The position numbers and the translations under genes were made by a program. DNA of 64,000 bases from Gemmatimonas sp. Its GTDB lineage: Bacteria; Gemmatimonadota; Gemmatimonadetes; Gemmatimonadales; Gemmatimonadaceae. Shown piece after piece: positions 34,062 through 64,000 of the stretch; the first letter of the stretch is position 1; every line of letters starts with the position of its first letter. The stretch lies in contig NZ_JAPZSK010000007.1 of NCBI RefSeq assembly GCF_027531815.1, positions 1-64,000 of the forward strand, read 5' to 3'. A model generated the notes under the pieces. The model saw only the letters and a program-made list of their open reading frames with translations, was not told where the DNA came from and made no database searches.

Positions 34062-34134
34062 GCTGACGTAGCTCAGTTGGTAGAGCAGCTGATTTGTAAT
34101 CAGCAGGTCAGGGGTTCGAGCCCCCTCGTCAGCT
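34062..34134 (+). tRNA. tRNA-Thr(TGT)
   Basis: 73 nt. Acceptor GCTGACG pairs with CGTCAGC. D arm GCTC/GAGC. Anticodon stem GCTGA/TCAGC with loop TTTGTAA, anticodon TGT. T loop TTCGAGC. The 3' CCA is not encoded. First of four tRNA genes in the same order as E. coli thrU-tyrU-glyT-thrT. Confidence 0.97.
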
Positions 34135-34168
34135 TTCGCGGTACTCGCGCGGCGGCCGGCGGAACTTG

Positions 34169-34251
34169 GGTGGGGTACTCAAGTGGCCAACGAGATCAGA
34201 CTGTAAATCTGACGGCGCAAGCCTTCGAAGGTTCGAATCCTTCCCCCACCA
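34169..34251 (+). tRNA. tRNA-Tyr(GTA)
   Basis: 83 nt, class II with a long variable arm. Acceptor GGTGGGG pairs with CCCCACC. Anticodon stem TCAGA/TCTGA with loop CTGTAAA, anticodon GTA. T stem GAAGG/CCTTC with loop TTCGAAT. CCA not encoded in full. Confidence 0.96.
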
Positions 34252-34293
34252 TGGCAGGACCGCCGGCGCAGTGGCGGGTAGCACCGTAAGCAC

Positions 34294-34366
34294 GCGGGAG
34301 TAGCTCAGCTGGTAGAGCGCAAGCCTTCCAAGCTTGATGTCGCGGGTTCGAGCCCCGTCTCCCGCT
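34294..34366 (+). tRNA. tRNA-Gly(TCC)
   Basis: 73 nt. Acceptor GCGGGAG pairs with CTCCCGC. Anticodon stem CAAGC/GCTTG with loop CTTCCAA, anticodon TCC. T loop TTCGAGC. CCA not encoded. Confidence 0.97.
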
Positions 34367-34387
34367 CTGTTGGTGAAGGTGCAGGAC

Positions 34388-34460
34388 GCTCACGTAGCTC
34401 AGTCGGCAGAGCACATCCTTGGTAAGGATGAGGTCACCGGTTCGATCCCGGTCGTGAGCT
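34388..34460 (+). tRNA. tRNA-Thr(GGT)
   Basis: 73 nt. Acceptor GCTCACG pairs with CGTGAGC. Anticodon stem CATCC/GGATG with loop TTGGTAA, anticodon GGT. T loop TTCGATC. In E. coli the gene after this tRNA is tufB; here a terminator hairpin follows. Confidence 0.97.
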
Positions 34461-57515: not shown

Positions 57516-57982
57516 GCCGTCGCAAGAGTGCCGTGAAGCGTACCGTGCTGCCTGATGCACGCTACGACAGCCAGACCGTCTCGAAGTTCATCAACAACTT
57601 GATGATCCAGGGCAAGAAGAGCACTGCCGAAGGCATCTTCTACTCGGCCATGGACATCGTCGAGGCGAAGACCAGCCAGCCGGGGGTCGGGGTGTTCAAG
57701 CAGGCGCTGAACAACCTCAAGCCGGTGGTCGAGGTGAAGAGCCGCCGCGTCGGTGGTGCCACCTACCAGGTGCCGGTCGAAGTCCGTCAGGACCGGCGGA
57801 CTGCGCTCGCCATGCGCTGGCTCATCTCGTATTCGCGTGATCGCAACGAGAAGAGCATGCCCGAAAAGCTGGCTGCCGAAGTGCTGGCTGCCGCCCGCGG
57901 CGAAGGCAACGCGGTGAAGAAGAAGGAAGACACGCACCGTATGGCCGAAGCCAACAAGGCGTTTGCCCACTACCGCTGGTAA
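57512..57982 (+). CDS. rpsG: 30S ribosomal protein S7
   Basis: A protein of 156 aa. S7 nucleates the 30S head. [51 protein letters not shown] and RKKEDTH-like [21 protein letters not shown] are canonical. Starts with GTG inside the rpsL end. fusA and tuf, which usually follow, are absent; a terminator comes instead. Confidence 0.98.
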
Positions 57983-58027
57983 ACGGTCGCGACACGCGAC
58001 AACCAGCCGGCCGGTCGACCGGTCTGC

Positions 58028-58057
58028 ACGCCCCGGATGCCAACGCATCCGGGGCGT
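58028..58057 (+). terminator. terminator of rpsL-rpsG
   Basis: Perfect 13-bp stem (58028-58040 with 58045-58057), CAAC loop, then TT. It lies 45 bp after rpsG and closes the operon before any fusA gene. Confidence 0.8.
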
Positions 58058-58254
58058 TTGCGTTGGCGGATCGACCAAAGGGCCGTGTCACACCCACGGC
58101 ACCGCCGTAACGCCCCTGACTCGCTTTCCGACGGCGTCCGTGTTTCAATCCCGGCACTCGTTACGGCGCGGGACGGATCGTTTCGGCCGCGGCCTGCGGC
58201 GTTGCGCGCACGACGTGCTCGCGTCACCTTTCTGAGAGTACGCGGCACGCCCTC

Positions 58255-58352
58255 GGGGTGCTCGCGAAAAGGCAAACCCGGCGAAAGTCGGGGACGCAAA
58301 GCTTCAGGGCTTCCATGCACTGCACGTGCATTGCCGGCTGGGCTACCGAACG
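58255..58352 (+). ncRNA. c-di-GMP-I (GEMM) riboswitch
   Basis: The aptamer core matches class I c-di-GMP riboswitches: GGCAAAC (58271-58277), P2 stem CCCGGC/GTCGGG capped by a GAAA tetraloop (58277-58292), the hallmark GGGACGCAAAGC (58291-58302), a P3 hairpin with CATGCAC...GTGCAT, and GGGCTACCGA closing toward P1. It ends about 8 nt before the GAGGAG ribosome site of the next gene, so the output is probably control of translation start. Whether c-di-GMP turns it on or off cannot be read with certainty. Confidence 0.92.
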
Positions 58353-58374
58353 ACCATGAGGAGGCGCGCAGACG

Positions 58375-59193
58375 ATGCGTAGAGCGTGGCGGCAGGTGAT
58401 GAGTCGAGGCAGGCGGCGCATGGGAGTGTCTGCCACTGGCGGTGCCCTGCTGTTGCTCGCCTCCTGTCGGCCCGCCGCCGCGTCACTGGAACTCGCGCCC
58501 GGTGCAGGGGCAGCCTCGACCGCCAACGCGATTCTCGCCACTCCGCCGCGCTCGGATGATGCCAGCCGCGTTCGCCTGCTGCGCACTGCCAACCGGCTGC
58601 CCAAAGTGGCCTTTCCGCGCCTCCGTGCCGACTGTCTGACCCAGGGGGAAGAGTTCGGAGCGTGGACCGTGCGTTTCGATGGGTACGGCTGCGTGACCGT
58701 CACCGGCAACGGCGACCAGGGGGCGCTGGCCATGGGCCCCAAGGCCGCCGCCAAGGACTGGCATACGCACGCACCGCTGGTGCTCGGCCCTACTTACGCC
58801 AGGCATCTGCTGCTGCACGCGCGCGTGGAAACCATGGCGCAGCTGCGAGACGGCGCACCCAACCCCTGGGAAGTGGCCTGGGTGATCTGGCAGTACGAAG
58901 ACGACACCCGCTTCTACTACTTCATCCCCAAGCCCAACGGGTGGGAACTTGGCAAGCGGGACCCATCGTACCCGGGGGGGCAGCGCTTCCTTGCCTCGGG
59001 CACGACCGAGCGGTTTCCCATTGGTAGGGTGCACGATGTGACCATCGTGCAGGACGACGACCGCATCGCCGTGTTCGTGGATGGACGGGAGATCGTGCGT
59101 ACCCGCGACGTCGAGAAGCCCTATCGTCGGGGGCGCATCGGCATCTATGCCGAGGATGCCGCCATCAAGGTGCACGCGGTGCGGGCCCTCTAG
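58375..59193 (+). CDS. riboswitch-controlled lipoprotein with lectin-like fold
   Basis: A protein of 272 aa. Lipoprotein signal ending GALLLLASC. The mature domain looks like a concanavalin-type jelly roll of the DUF1080 / LamG sort: ARHLLLHARVETMAQLRDG, WEVAWVIWQYEDDTRFYYFI, GRVHDVTIVQDDDRIAVFVDGRE and RRGRIGIYAEDAAIKVHAVRA at the end (parts of a continuous run). Such folds bind glycans. ATG 58375 is used because GAGGAG lies 10 nt upstream; ATG 58420 is a shorter option. Its place before an exopolysaccharide operon suggests it binds or processes that polymer. Confidence 0.75.
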   Translation: MRRAWRQVMSRGRRRMGVSATGGALLLLASCRPAAASLELAPGAGAASTANAILATPPRSDDASRVRLLRTANRLPKVAFPRLRADCLTQGEEFGAWTVRFDGYGCVTVTGNGDQGALAMGPKAAAKDWHTHAPLVLGPTYARHLLLHARVETMAQLRDGAPNPWEVAWVIWQYEDDTRFYYFIPKPNGWELGKRDPSYPGGQRFLASGTTERFPIGRVHDVTIVQDDDRIAVFVDGREIVRTRDVEKPYRRGRIGIYAEDAAIKVHAVRAL

Positions 59194-59246
59194 CGCGGGG
59201 CGTGCCGACGGCGCCGCGCCGTTTTCCGTCGAGCGGTCTCGATCAC

Positions 59247-59276
59247 ACGCCACCCGGGCCTCGCCACGGGTGGCGT
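59247..59276 (+). terminator. hairpin after the lipoprotein gene
   Basis: 10-bp stem (59247-59256 with 59267-59276) with a 10-nt loop, then TG. It suggests that the lipoprotein and the following operon are partly separate units. TAAGCT at 59355-59360 is a possible -10 element for the operon. Confidence 0.5.
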
Positions 59277-59445
59277 TGTGCATCCGGTACTCCGCTGGCA
59301 CACCGGTGACCGGGGGCCCCGTCACGGCGTCTATCGCGAGAGTCACACCACCGGTAAGCTTCACTCCGCCAGCGGTTGCTCTCGGGGTCGCCAACAGGAC
59401 GTGAGTGGTGCCCGAGGTCGGCCGACGCTTCCCTCACCCGTCACT

Positions 59446-60762
59446 GTGCTGCTCATCCTTCGTCATCCGCTGCGCCGCCTGTGGTCGCAGCCCTGGTGCG
59501 CGCTTTTCGTGCTGATGGTTGGCCTGCTGCTTCCCGCCGCCGCACGTGCTCAGGGGAACGAGCGGCATGCCAGTGCCATGAATGTGGCGTACGCGGCCAA
59601 GCAACGGGGCGACACCGCGGCGGCCCGCGAGTACTTCCGGCGCGCCATCGATGCCGACAGCGCTGCGCCATCCCCGTACATCGAGTTGGGCTATCTCGAC
59701 CTTGCCGGGGGCAACAAGGCGTCGGCGGCACGCTGGTTCGCGCTGGGGGCAGGGCGCGCACCGCAGAACGCCGACGTGCGACGGCAGTTGGGCTACGTTC
59801 TGATCGACCTGCGCCGCACCGACGAGGCCATTGCCGCCCTGGAGAGCATCGCGACGACGCCGTCGGGCTTCGTGGACCGCGATCGGCTTGCCCTGGCGTA
59901 CTTGTACGATGGCGCCGCGCGCAACCGTGATGCCATGACGGCGTTCCGGGCCGCCGCAGCCAGCCGCGACACCGGGGTGGCCAACCCCGCTCGCCGCGCG
60001 CTGCGCGTGAAGGGCAACGTGGGGACGGTACTCTTCTCCGAAGGCTACCTCGCTCCGTTCTACCAGTCGCGCTTCGAGAACACCATCGGCTTCGGCTTCA
60101 TCAGACAGGGGATCGAGAGCGGAAGCGCCTGGGCGCCGGCGGCCTACACGTCGCTGCGTGTCACCCGCGATTCGCGGTCAAGTGGCGCGCAGTCGCGCGT
60201 CCTTTCCGACAACGCCGCCATTGCGGCCGGCGGTGTGCGTGTCCGCCCGTGGCATGGACCCGTGTGGCTGTACGCGGAAGCCGGCGGCGCCTACTCGTTG
60301 CTTCCCGACGACTCGGTGTCGTGGCGGCGGGACATTCGTACCGGTGCGTATCTCATCGCCCAGGACGACCGGCGGCTCATGCCGACGGCGCGGTGGACGC
60401 TGCTCACCGATGTCGTGGCCGACGTGAGCTGGTACGAGCGGTTTGATCGCAACGTCATCGGGTACGCGCAGCTCCGGGAAGGCATTCGCGTGGGCACCCC
60501 AGGTACGCTGGCCCTTGATCTGTTCGGGCGCGGGTGGTTGGGATACGACAGCCGCGGCGACTTCTTCAACCGCGCCGCAGAAATCGGGGGCGGTGTGGCA
60601 GTACGAGTCGGCCCGAACTTTGTGTTCTTCGGTGAAGGCATCCAGGGGCGCTTCCTGCCCGCGCCGCCCCGGGGCGTCGACCAACAGTATCAGGAGTGGC
60701 GCGTCACCGCCGTGTGGGGGTGGCGTGCGCTCAGGCCCGTGCGGGCGGAGGACCGGCCATGA
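59446..60762 (+). CDS. NfrA-like TPR / beta-barrel outer-membrane protein
   Basis: A protein of 438 aa from GTG 59446; GTG 59401 is possible and the start is uncertain. Signal peptide (RHPLRRLWSQPWCALFVLM ... AAARAQ). Residues ~40-180 are TPR repeats (AREYFRRAIDADSAAPSPYIELG, ASAARWFALGAGRAPQNAD, split here). From ~185 on it is strand-rich with alternating aromatic residues, like the outer-membrane barrel of NfrA (GVRVRPWHGPVWLYAEAGG, WTLLTDVVADVSWYERF). Much shorter than E. coli NfrA. Its ATGA overlap with the glycosyltransferase makes it the likely export partner. Confidence 0.75.
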   Translation: MLLILRHPLRRLWSQPWCALFVLMVGLLLPAAARAQGNERHASAMNVAYAAKQRGDTAAAREYFRRAIDADSAAPSPYIELGYLDLAGGNKASAARWFALGAGRAPQNADVRRQLGYVLIDLRRTDEAIAALESIATTPSGFVDRDRLALAYLYDGAARNRDAMTAFRAAAASRDTGVANPARRALRVKGNVGTVLFSEGYLAPFYQSRFENTIGFGFIRQGIESGSAWAPAAYTSLRVTRDSRSSGAQSRVLSDNAAIAAGGVRVRPWHGPVWLYAEAGGAYSLLPDDSVSWRRDIRTGAYLIAQDDRRLMPTARWTLLTDVVADVSWYERFDRNVIGYAQLREGIRVGTPGTLALDLFGRGWLGYDSRGDFFNRAAEIGGGVAVRVGPNFVFFGEGIQGRFLPAPPRGVDQQYQEWRVTAVWGWRALRPVRAEDRP

Positions 60763-62303
60763 CGACACTCGAGATGGGCGTGGTCGCCATTGCCGCGCTG
60801 TACCTCATCTTTGCCATCGACGACCTGCTCTTCGACGTCACCTTTTGGCTTGGGGCGATCTTCGGCTGGTGGAAGCGCCCGGTCGTGACGCTGCGCGAGT
60901 TGCAGGAGGTGAGCGAGTGGCGCATCGCCATCGTCACGCCGGCGTGGAAGGAAGACGACGTGATTGCGCGCATGCTGCTCTACAACCTGCCGCGTCTCGA
61001 TTACCAGCGATACGACTACTGGATCGGTACCTACCAGAACGATCCGGATACGCGGCGCGAGGTGGACAAGGTGCGCGCGGTGTATCCGAACGTACGCAAG
61101 GTGACCACCGACCACGACGGCCCCACCTCCAAGGCCGACTGCGTGAACACGGTGCTGCGGGCCATCGTGGAGCACGAGCAGCGCGCCGGGCTGCGCTACG
61201 ACCTCATCGTCTTCCACGATGTCGAGGACCTCGTGCATCCCCTGGAGCTGCGGTTGCTGAACTGGTACTTCCGCGGCGACTCCGTGGACTTTGTGCAGTT
61301 GCCGGTCCTCAGTACGCCCCCGTTCTGGTACGACTTCGTGGCCGGCACGTACATCGACGAGTTCGCCGAGCAGTACACGAAGAACATGTTCGTGCGCGAG
61401 AAGATCTGGGGCTTTGTTCCCTCGGCAGGCGTGGCCACCTGCGTGCGGCGGTCGGTCATCGACCAGCTGATGGAAGAGCGGAACGGAACGCCCTTCGCGA
61501 CCAACTCGCTCACCGAGGACTACGACCTGGGGCTTGGCCTCACCGTGCAAGGGCGTCCGACGCGGTACCTGCACCAGTACGTGCAACTCGAGGAGCATGA
61601 CCGCAACAGCGAGGAGCTGGTTGCCACCTGGGCGCCGTTCCCGCAGACGTTTCGCACGGCGGTGCGTCAGCGCACCCGCTGGATGGCCGGCATCGTGTTT
61701 CAGGGATGGGAGCACTGGGGGTGGCCGAAGGGGCTGGCCTGGCTGCTCGCGCACGACCGCCGCGGTCCGCTGGGGTATCTGGTGGTGCTCGCGGGGTACC
61801 TGCTGCTGCTGTACTTCGTGCTCTACGAGTGGGTGCGGGTCTTCTACGATCGCTCGCTGCCGGCCGTGCTCGAGGAGCCCTGGTTCGTGTGGCTCTTCTG
61901 GATTGGCCTGTTCTTCATGGTCAACCGCCTGCTGCAGCGCGCCATCAGCACCGGCAAGCTCTATGGCTTCGGGCAGGCGCTGCTCGCGATCTTCCGGACG
62001 CCGTTCTCCAACCTGGTGAACATGGTGGCCACCTTCCGCGCCGCGAATCAGTACTTCGCGTCACGCCGCGCCGGCATTCCCATGAGCTGGGACAAGACCG
62101 AGCATTCGTTGCCGCCTCAGGTGGGCGCCCAGATGCGTCTGGGTGAACGGCTCATCGAGGAGAAGAAGCTCACTACGCAGCAGCTGGTGCTCGCTCTCAA
62201 GGAACAGCGTGAGAAGGGCGGTCAGCTGGGGGCCATTCTGGTCAAGCAGGGGGCCGTCTCGCGCGATGATGTGGAGACGATCGTGAGGAGTACCGGCGCA
62301 TGA
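60759..62303 (+). CDS. NfrB-like family 2 glycosyltransferase with C-terminal MshEN c-di-GMP domain
   Basis: A protein of 514 aa. One N-terminal helix (10-35), then a GT2 domain: IAIVTPAWKEDDVIARML, GPTSKADCVN, DVED (154-157), SAGVATC, LTEDYDLG (TED 252-254) and QRTRW (304-308), the acceptor and product-binding signature of processive synthases. Helices at ~337-360 and 374-392. Residues ~460-512 form an MshEN domain (RLGERLIEEKKLTTQQLVLALKEQ and LGAILVKQGAV), the c-di-GMP-binding module also found in E. coli NfrB and MshE. GGAGG precedes the ATG, which overlaps the upstream stop. It should make an exopolysaccharide when c-di-GMP is bound. Confidence 0.92.
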   Translation: MTTLEMGVVAIAALYLIFAIDDLLFDVTFWLGAIFGWWKRPVVTLRELQEVSEWRIAIVTPAWKEDDVIARMLLYNLPRLDYQRYDYWIGTYQNDPDTRREVDKVRAVYPNVRKVTTDHDGPTSKADCVNTVLRAIVEHEQRAGLRYDLIVFHDVEDLVHPLELRLLNWYFRGDSVDFVQLPVLSTPPFWYDFVAGTYIDEFAEQYTKNMFVREKIWGFVPSAGVATCVRRSVIDQLMEERNGTPFATNSLTEDYDLGLGLTVQGRPTRYLHQYVQLEEHDRNSEELVATWAPFPQTFRTAVRQRTRWMAGIVFQGWEHWGWPKGLAWLLAHDRRGPLGYLVVLAGYLLLLYFVLYEWVRVFYDRSLPAVLEEPWFVWLFWIGLFFMVNRLLQRAISTGKLYGFGQALLAIFRTPFSNLVNMVATFRAANQYFASRRAGIPMSWDKTEHSLPPQVGAQMRLGERLIEEKKLTTQQLVLALKEQREKGGQLGAILVKQGAVSRDDVETIVRSTGA

Positions 62304-63496
62304 GCCGCCCCCAATGGTTGACGCCACTACGGGGCGTGCCGGTCGTGCCGGGCACACCAAGCGTGGCCGTGGTGGTGGGCACCCGTCCGGAAGTCATCAA
62401 GATGGCGCCAGTGGTGCGTGCCTTGCGGAGCGCCGAGAGCCGCGTGGCGTGTACCGTGGTGAGTACCGGACAGCATCGCGACCTGCTGGCCCGTGCCTTT
62501 CACGATGTGGGGATGGCGCCCGACATCGAGCTGGGGTTGATGACCGACAACCAGTCGCCCAGCGGTTTCGTGGCGCGGTGCATCGCCGCGCTCGACGAGG
62601 TTCTTGCGCAGTGCGGGCCCCAGGCAGTGCTGGTGCAGGGCGATACGAGCAGCGCCTGTGCGGGCGCGATGGCGGCCACCTGGCGCGCGATCCCCGTGGG
62701 GCACGTGGAAGCCGGATTGCGTTCCTTCAACTTCCAGGAACCGTTCCCTGAGGAGTTTCATCGGCGGGTGGTGGGGGTGGCGGCCCAATGGCACTTTGCG
62801 CCAACGCCGGAAAGCCGCGACAACCTGTTGCGCGAGGGAGTGCCGGTGCATCGCATCTTCGTGACGGGCAATACGATCGTGGATGCGGTCCGGCAGATGG
62901 ACGTGTCGCGTGCGTTCGAGAACCCAGCGATCGATCGAATTCCCCCGGGGCGTCTGGCGCTGGTCACGGCCCACCGGCGCGAGAACCAGGGGGAGTCGAT
63001 GCGCGACATTGCGCGCGCGGTGAAACGGCTCGTCGCGGCGGTGGCGGACCTGCAGGTTGTGCTGCCGTTGCATCCGAATCCAAACGTGCGTGGTCTCCTC
63101 GAGCAGGAACTCGTGGGGGTGGAGCGCGTGCACCTGCTGGAGCCGCTGAGCTACCCCGACCTGCTCAAGGTGCTGTGCGCCAGCACGATCATTCTGTCCG
63201 ACAGTGGTGGCCTGCAGGAGGAAGCGCCGAGCGTGGGGCGCCCCATCCTCATCCTGCGGGACCGTACCGAGCGGCCGGAGGTGGTGCAGGTGGGGGCGGG
63301 CATTCTGGTGGGCACAGACCCCGATCTGATCGTGAAGGAGGCGCTGGCCATTCTGTGCGATCCCGTGGTGTACGAGCGCATGGTGACGGTGCCCAACCCC
63401 TTCGGCGATGGTCGGGCGTCGTGGCGGATCGCGGAGATTCTCGCCAGCTCCTTGGTGGACGAGGTGGAGTCGCCGTCGATATCGATGGTGTTGTAG
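62300..63496 (+). CDS. wecB: UDP-N-acetylglucosamine 2-epimerase (non-hydrolysing)
   Basis: A protein of 398 aa. It interconverts UDP-GlcNAc and UDP-ManNAc. Motifs: VAVVVGTRPEVIKMAPVVRAL, TGQHRDLL, VLVQGDTSSACAGAMAATW, GHVEAGLRSFNFQEPFPEEFHRR (read in parts), TGNTIVDAV, TAHRRENQGESM, LPLHPNPNVR, LSDSGGLQEEAPSVGRPILILRDRTERPE (in parts). ATGA overlap with the glycosyltransferase gene puts it in the same coupled operon, implying UDP-ManNAc as the sugar donor, as in the E. coli NfrB pathway. Confidence 0.95.
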   Translation: MSRPQWLTPLRGVPVVPGTPSVAVVVGTRPEVIKMAPVVRALRSAESRVACTVVSTGQHRDLLARAFHDVGMAPDIELGLMTDNQSPSGFVARCIAALDEVLAQCGPQAVLVQGDTSSACAGAMAATWRAIPVGHVEAGLRSFNFQEPFPEEFHRRVVGVAAQWHFAPTPESRDNLLREGVPVHRIFVTGNTIVDAVRQMDVSRAFENPAIDRIPPGRLALVTAHRRENQGESMRDIARAVKRLVAAVADLQVVLPLHPNPNVRGLLEQELVGVERVHLLEPLSYPDLLKVLCASTIILSDSGGLQEEAPSVGRPILILRDRTERPEVVQVGAGILVGTDPDLIVKEALAILCDPVVYERMVTVPNPFGDGRASWRIAEILASSLVDEVESPSISMVL

Positions 63497-63533
63497 CGCT
63501 GGTGCTGTAGCGCTGGTGCTGTAGCGCTGGTGC
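63492..63533 (+). repeat. three tandem copies of a 14-bp unit
   Basis: TGTAGCGCTGGTGC is repeated exactly three times. The first copy contains the TAG stop codon of wecB, so the repeat begins inside the gene end. Each unit carries the palindrome AGCGCT. Confidence 0.9.
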
Positions 63534-63636
63534 CATGATCCGGGTGGTGGCCCGGTTCCCGTCGCTGTTGCATGAATGCAGCACCCTGTTGCATTATGTC
63601 GGTGTCATGTGCCACACAACCTGATTCCTCTGTCCG

Positions 63637-63661
63637 TGCGGGGGCTCTTGCGCCCCGCGCA
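63637..63661 (+). terminator. hairpin after the exopolysaccharide operon
   Basis: Nine-bp G/C stem with one bulged G (63637-63645 with 63652-63661) and loop TCTTGC. It could end the wecB transcript. Confidence 0.5.
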
Positions 63662-63694
63662 GGCCGTGTCGCTCCCATAGGCGCACTGAGCCGT

Positions 63695-63710
63695 TGGCAC
63701 GGCTTGTGCT
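63695..63710 (+). promoter_or_regulatory. sigma-54 (-24/-12) promoter
   Basis: TGGCACGGCTTGTGCT matches the consensus TGGCACG-N4-TTGC(A/T) at 11 of 12 fixed positions, with the essential GG and GC correctly spaced. Transcription would start near 63722, about 34 nt before the next ATG. Confidence 0.7.
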
Positions 63711-63755
63711 GGTGAGAGTGGCAGCAGCAGGGATCACAACTACCCGGAACCGACA

Positions 63756-64000
63756 ATGCTTTCCCCCGTCGCTCGCGCCGCCCTGACCGTAGCCCTGGTT
63801 GGAAGTTCCGCGTCCCTTGCTGGTGCGCAGACCTTTGCGGATCTGGCGTACAACAGCCCGACCAACCCGAGTTTCCCGACGCAGTGGAACTCCCACCTCT
63901 GCCAGTGGGGGGGACAGGCGATCGGGCCGAACTACGCGGGATCGACCTGGACCGGTTTTGCGGCGCTCGACCTCCGCGACTATCTCTTCTCCGGGGGGCA
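63756..64000 (+). CDS. secreted protein, 5' part only
   Basis: Open from ATG 63756 to the window end (81 codons, no stop). Begins with a signal peptide (MLSPVARAALTVALVGSSAS, cleavage near LAGAQ), then TFADLAYNSPTNPSFPTQWN and WTGFAALDLRDYLFSGG. It has no recognised domain in the visible part. The sigma-54 promoter and its position beside an exopolysaccharide operon recall the sigma-54-controlled PEP-CTERM proteins of biofilm matrices, but the C-terminus is not in this window. Confidence 0.7.
   Translation, partial: MLSPVARAALTVALVGSSASLAGAQTFADLAYNSPTNPSFPTQWNSHLCQWGGQAIGPNYAGSTWTGFAALDLRDYLFSGG

Follow-up and report, generated by a model that had tools for sequence, protein, structure and literature searches.

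A class I c-di-GMP riboswitch precedes a lipoprotein gene at an Nfr-type polysaccharide locus in Gemmatimonas

Gene content between rpsG and fusA

The window, by which we mean the whole 64,000-nucleotide stretch of the Gemmatimonas sp. contig that was analysed, contains near its end a gene cluster in which all features lie on the + strand. The site compared among genomes covers positions 57982-64000 and onward to fusA (L006 8956 onward). The order is rpsG, a c-di-GMP class I (GEMM-I) aptamer, a CBM66-like lipoprotein gene, a gene for a TPR/barrel exporter, nfrB, wecB, a PEP-CTERM gene and fusA. Because the cluster sits between rpsG and fusA-tuf, the usual str gene order is interrupted. Elsewhere in the window four tRNA genes are clustered at 34062-34460 (+).

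The lipoprotein gene (58375-59193, +) encodes a protein with an LLASC lipobox and a predicted concanavalin-like jelly roll. The closest solved fold to the predicted structure is the fructan-binding module CBM66 (4azz), with a Z of 18.0 and an rmsd of 2.3 over 154 aligned residues, though the identity is 12%. Searching the PDB by sequence with a profile of the lipoprotein yielded no more than marginal LamG-like matches (best E 0.044). The fold prediction supports a glycan-binding-like surface protein, which may have a role alongside the polymer. The next gene (59440-60762, +) encodes a protein predicted to combine TPRs with a 12-strand outer-membrane barrel, as in an NfrA/BcsC-like exporter. 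Its top Foldseek match is the cellulose exporter BcsC of E. coli, from which it differs in having a shorter TPR part, with 10% identity and a low TM-score of 0.37; the NfrA family was not among the Pfam and NCBIfam results for this protein.

The gene at 60759-62303 (+) encodes an NfrB-like glycosyltransferase (NF012033, 8.6e-136; NF008411, 4e-125) with a C-terminal MshEN c-di-GMP-binding domain (NF053729, 48.7 bits against a cut-off of 38). The NfrB motifs, QRTRW of the QxxRW type and TED, are invariant columns of the alignment. As the protein scores 418.9 against an NfrB equivalog cut-off of 1170 we refer to it as NfrB-like rather than as an E. coli-type NfrB; its nearest named relative is 97% identical. 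Through its MshEN domain the synthase should itself be switched by c-di-GMP. Overlapping nfrB is wecB (62300-63496, +), encoding a non-hydrolysing UDP-GlcNAc 2-epimerase (TIGR00236, 402 bits, cut-off 210), and with this gene present WecB would be expected to supply UDP-ManNAc to the Nfr system. The last gene before fusA (63756-64000, +, continuing past the window) encodes a PEP-CTERM protein.

The NfrB of E. coli binds c-di-GMP through MshEN with a Kd of ~1 μM and, in a WecB-dependent manner, produces the N4 glycan receptor (PMC8669469, PMC8669472). The Gemmatimonas cluster shares with the E. coli NfrBA-WecB system an NfrB-like glycosyltransferase with MshEN, WecB and a predicted outer-membrane TPR/barrel exporter. 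On the other hand, here wecB lies inside the cluster, along with a riboswitch-headed lipoprotein gene, a PEP-CTERM gene stands at the end, and no ybcH was identified. There is no mention of a riboswitch in the E. coli Nfr paper (PMC8669469).

The aptamer and its conservation

The aptamer (58262-58351, +) scores 69.5 bits with the Rfam model c-di-GMP-I (RF01051, cut-off 35) and 62.5 bits with c-di-GMP-I-GGC (RF03167, cut-off 59, E 2.3e-12). A sequence-only reading of this DNA had named a c-di-GMP-I riboswitch and suggested a covariance-model search with the class I model; both scores bear it out, and the parts it listed are all located in the order given, namely GGCAAAC (from 58271), a P2 with a GAAA cap (58277-58292), GGGACGCAAAGC and P3. 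Over 12 related loci, which represent two genera only, 95% of the cells are paired in P1, 98.6% in P2 and 98.1% in P3. The stems hold 26 two-sided changes in these loci, compared with 9.4 +/- 2.4 in shuffled controls and no more than 10 in slid ones, a count for which P1, being near-invariant, is uninformative. The aptamer is a genuine, ordinary class I c-di-GMP riboswitch, and it would be expected to bind c-di-GMP.

By a profile search, close relatives of NfrB were found in 9 of 395 genomes of the phylum, belonging to two genera. All nine have a class I aptamer on the same strand as nfrB, 2.3-2.6 kb before it, between rpsG and the lipoprotein gene. The linkage of the riboswitch to nfrB is not due to chance. 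Three fragmentary genomes of the same genus (G415, G417 and G419) also carry the aptamer and the lipoprotein gene at this place, and in each of the 12 aptamer-bearing loci the lipoprotein gene follows immediately. A contig scan with strict patterns found close relatives from Gemmatimonadaceae only.

Members of the genus without the lipoprotein gave no class I match at the rpsG locus. The rpsG-fusA interval was inspected in six such genomes: in four (G180, G068, G249 and G269) the two genes are separated by a wecB relative plus several kb of other sequence, in G019 rpsG is followed by a polysaccharide-type cluster and fusA is not reached, and in G416 rpsG and fusA are almost adjacent. Within the genus the gap is variable, being occupied by the Nfr cluster, by other polysaccharide-type clusters or, as in G416, by near nothing.

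The same genome has a second class I riboswitch (G000:C4:439628-439717; L005 9629-9717), which heads the gene of a 710-aa lipoprotein; this protein carries bacterial Ig-like repeats, and its C-terminus weakly resembles polysaccharide lyases. The second riboswitch is accompanied by a promoter element of related type, with a spacer of 17 nt. Similar Ig-repeat lipoproteins are headed by other GEMM-I copies of the genus. In the phylum, genomes of families f6 and f2 differ in their class I riboswitches, some having 8-10 apiece and others lacking them.

Promoter-like elements and probable transcription units

Upstream of the aptamer is the element GTTGC-N16-CGTC (58201-58225, +), which recurs at -57 to -60 in all nine Gemmatimonas loci; the three loci of the sister genus have GTGAC-N16-CGTC, farther upstream of the aptamer. 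A -35 box and a CGTC -10 box at fixed spacing form the layout of an ECF-sigma promoter, and boxes with a fixed spacing of 16-17 nt are what is found here. The element was then sought in 26 other GEMM-I leaders, from the same genus and from other genera, that had not been used for motif discovery. Eleven of these have it with a spacer of 16, whereas it occurs in 0.7% of background windows; the resulting p of ~2e-17 overstates independence because some of the leaders are orthologous. Other spacers from 10 to 24 gave 0-2 matches, and this specificity of spacing is independent of kinship. The upstream GG/GC boxes were also considered as a sigma-54 promoter, an idea rejected because their spacing is 11 and not 10, and no sigma-70 promoters were found in 57900-59500.

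A second ECF-like element, GTGAC-N17-CGTC(TATCGC), is located at 59306-59331 (+), between the lipoprotein and exporter genes, and the block GTGAC-N17-CGTCTATCGC is kept there in 8/9 Gemmatimonas loci. With this promoter-like block before the exporter gene, the exporter-nfrB-wecB operon probably has a promoter of its own and is probably independent of transcripts that cross the riboswitch. Whether the synthase operon is under riboswitch control had been left open in the sequence-only reading, and the second block provides a partial answer. Both elements are candidates for active promoters.

The G+C-rich hairpin after rpsG (58030-58055, +) has a similar counterpart in all 12 orthologous loci and is the probable end of the rpsL-rpsG transcript; it is absent from the list of the strict terminator scan. 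The terminator-like hairpin that had been noted after the lipoprotein gene (59247-59276) does have a perfect 9-bp stem (59248-59275, +), but this is followed by TTGTGC without a T-tract and was not reported by the terminator scan, leaving it a weak terminator candidate. In G417 the exporter gene is mostly lost, nfrB wholly and wecB mostly, with the start of the TPR gene joined to the end of wecB, a deletion that may be an assembly error (the genome is 57% complete). The aptamer, the lipoprotein gene and both promoter elements are intact in that genome, and their retention fits two separate units.

Proposed control by c-di-GMP

The Shine-Dalgarno sequence GAGGAGG (58358-58364, +) lies 10 nt before the ATG at 58375 and 4-6 nt past the aptamer: 4 nt from the end of the P1 strand (58353) or 6 nt from the end of the Rfam match (58351), rather than the 8 nt or so estimated initially. 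Its equivalent lies 3-10 nt past P1 in 12/12 orthologous loci, and the terminator scan found no terminator-like site between the aptamer and the start codon. A Shine-Dalgarno sequence close behind P1 with nothing terminator-like before the start favours translational control of the lipoprotein, which is the most likely reading, though the position of the Shine-Dalgarno sequence fits it without proving it. The proposal that lipoprotein translation is the target is thus supported as regards the lipoprotein, with translation as the probable mode. In Vibrio cholerae the class I riboswitch Vc1 lies upstream of gbpA, a gene for a glycan-binding protein, so that the two loci have in common the aptamer core, the contact bases and a position upstream of a gene whose product is secreted and glycan-binding(-like) (PMC4744006). 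In Vc1, however, the leader up to the start is 244 nt long, whereas here the Shine-Dalgarno sequence is a few nt past P1, the target is in an Nfr locus and the promoter is ECF-like.

Folding predicts a further hairpin, P0 (58241-58266, +), whose 3' arm overlaps the 5' strand of P1 and which is a candidate alternative to P1. P0 hairpins of the same architecture are predicted in 9/9 Gemmatimonas leaders, each weak when compared with shuffles. As an anti-Shine-Dalgarno P0 appeared strong in single folds (G039), but it failed the swap test. No anti-Shine-Dalgarno pairing passed this test, with cross-clade P0/Shine-Dalgarno energies equal to or better than those of self. Enforcing P1 and P2 raised the cost of opening the Shine-Dalgarno sequence and start in 8 of the 12 loci and lowered it in 4; enforcing P1 raised it in 7/9 Gemmatimonas leaders, with a maximum of +8.6 kcal/mol (G039), while two of the three sister-genus loci lean the opposite way. 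An ON/OFF call by thermodynamics was abandoned since the loci disagree, and in Gemmatimonas the folding leans towards OFF. The stability of the leader RNA in the window is not unusual (z -0.24), a value that is uninformative.

It would seem likely that the cluster consists of an ECF-promoted riboswitch mRNA, in which translation of the lipoprotein is switched, and a separately promoted synthase operon controlled through MshEN. In this scheme a short separate mRNA would start at the ECF-sigma-type promoter past the rpsG hairpin, carry the riboswitch at its 5' end and encode the surface lipoprotein with its glycan-binding-like jelly-roll domain. Binding of c-di-GMP would stabilise P1 immediately before the Shine-Dalgarno sequence and so alter translation of the lipoprotein. 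The exporter-nfrB-wecB operon would be transcribed from its own similar promoter, and c-di-GMP would control it at the enzyme, via the MshEN domain of NfrB. One signal, c-di-GMP, therefore appears to be read twice at one cluster, by RNA and by protein. Within this scheme, direct support exists for the aptamer, for its conservation and its link with nfrB, and for the promoter motif and the domain content of the proteins.

The ligand and the reach of the switch could each be read differently. cmscan places the aptamer of the window and those of two near relatives in RF03167 rather than RF01051, and the family name c-di-GMP-I-GGC might point to a variant for another ligand, such as 3',3'-cGAMP. 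We consider this very improbable, as several orthologues are assigned to RF01051 and not RF03167, with the label flipping between the two models at one locus; a label that splits the orthologues of a single locus denotes no separate kind. We take 58271, 58298 and 58346 to be the equivalents of G20, A47 and C92 of Vc2, based on a hand alignment to the Vc2 sequence, and the equivalent of G20 is kept in 12/12 related loci. In Vc2 these three bases contact c-di-GMP (PMC4744006), and the change that has been linked to cGAMP binding is G20A (PMC6274999), whereas the G is kept here; the genome also has 11 GGDEF matches. It is rather unlikely that the riboswitch governs the whole cluster, with read-through past the weak hairpin such that c-di-GMP also sets expression of the exporter, NfrB and WecB. 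A single strand with a gene order constant across two genera would suit this, as would the lack of a T-tract after the hairpin and of an apparent strong terminator after the lipoprotein gene in G074 and G415, but a promoter-like block stands before the exporter gene in nearly all the Gemmatimonas loci, and a switch at the lipoprotein Shine-Dalgarno sequence would leave translation of the later genes uncontrolled.

Similar considerations apply to how the switch acts. Several modes occur among known GEMM-I switches, the mode of Vc1 is unknown (PMC4744006), and the same data would fit control of transcript stability. An effect on transcription, by early termination or Rho access, or on mRNA stability, instead of on the start of translation, is nevertheless distinctly unlikely given the short distance from P1 to the Shine-Dalgarno sequence, here and in the orthologues, and the stretch free of terminator-like sites from aptamer to start codon. 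If translation is what is controlled, the control may be inverse, with c-di-GMP turning the lipoprotein OFF and the synthase ON. This we regard as possible but doubtful, and the same applies to its corollary that the lipoprotein would act at low c-di-GMP, for example in remodelling or release of the polymer. The strand contested by P0 and P1 and the raised opening cost in most Gemmatimonas leaders speak for inverse control; the negative swap test and the opposite lean in the sister genus speak against it, and what the lipoprotein matches in fold is a binding module rather than a tested enzyme.

What is new here is the gene context, an Nfr locus, and the promoter association of a known riboswitch class, both absent from the papers searched. 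A literature search on NfrB and riboswitches returned only incidental co-mentions, and one on Gemmatimonas, riboswitches and c-di-GMP no relevant paper, with subscription journals mostly outside the search, making this weak evidence of novelty. A broader idea, that a single ECF-sigma promoter class drives a regulon of riboswitch-headed lipoproteins in Gemmatimonadaceae and that c-di-GMP has two opposite effects at the Nfr locus, activation of the synthase via MshEN and repression of the lipoprotein via the riboswitch, is speculative and on present evidence unlikely. The preferred reading, a switched lipoprotein mRNA beside an MshEN-controlled synthase operon, would tie an RNA sensor of c-di-GMP to an Nfr-type polysaccharide pathway; in E. 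coli c-di-GMP controls that pathway at the level of the enzyme and, by way of PdeL, at the wec promoter. It would also provide a compact system where the RNA and protein readouts of one second messenger may be set side by side at a single locus. The motif found at many GEMM-I leaders, with its strict spacing, would give a handle on the sigma factor of the regulon, in a phylum that has seen little regulatory work.
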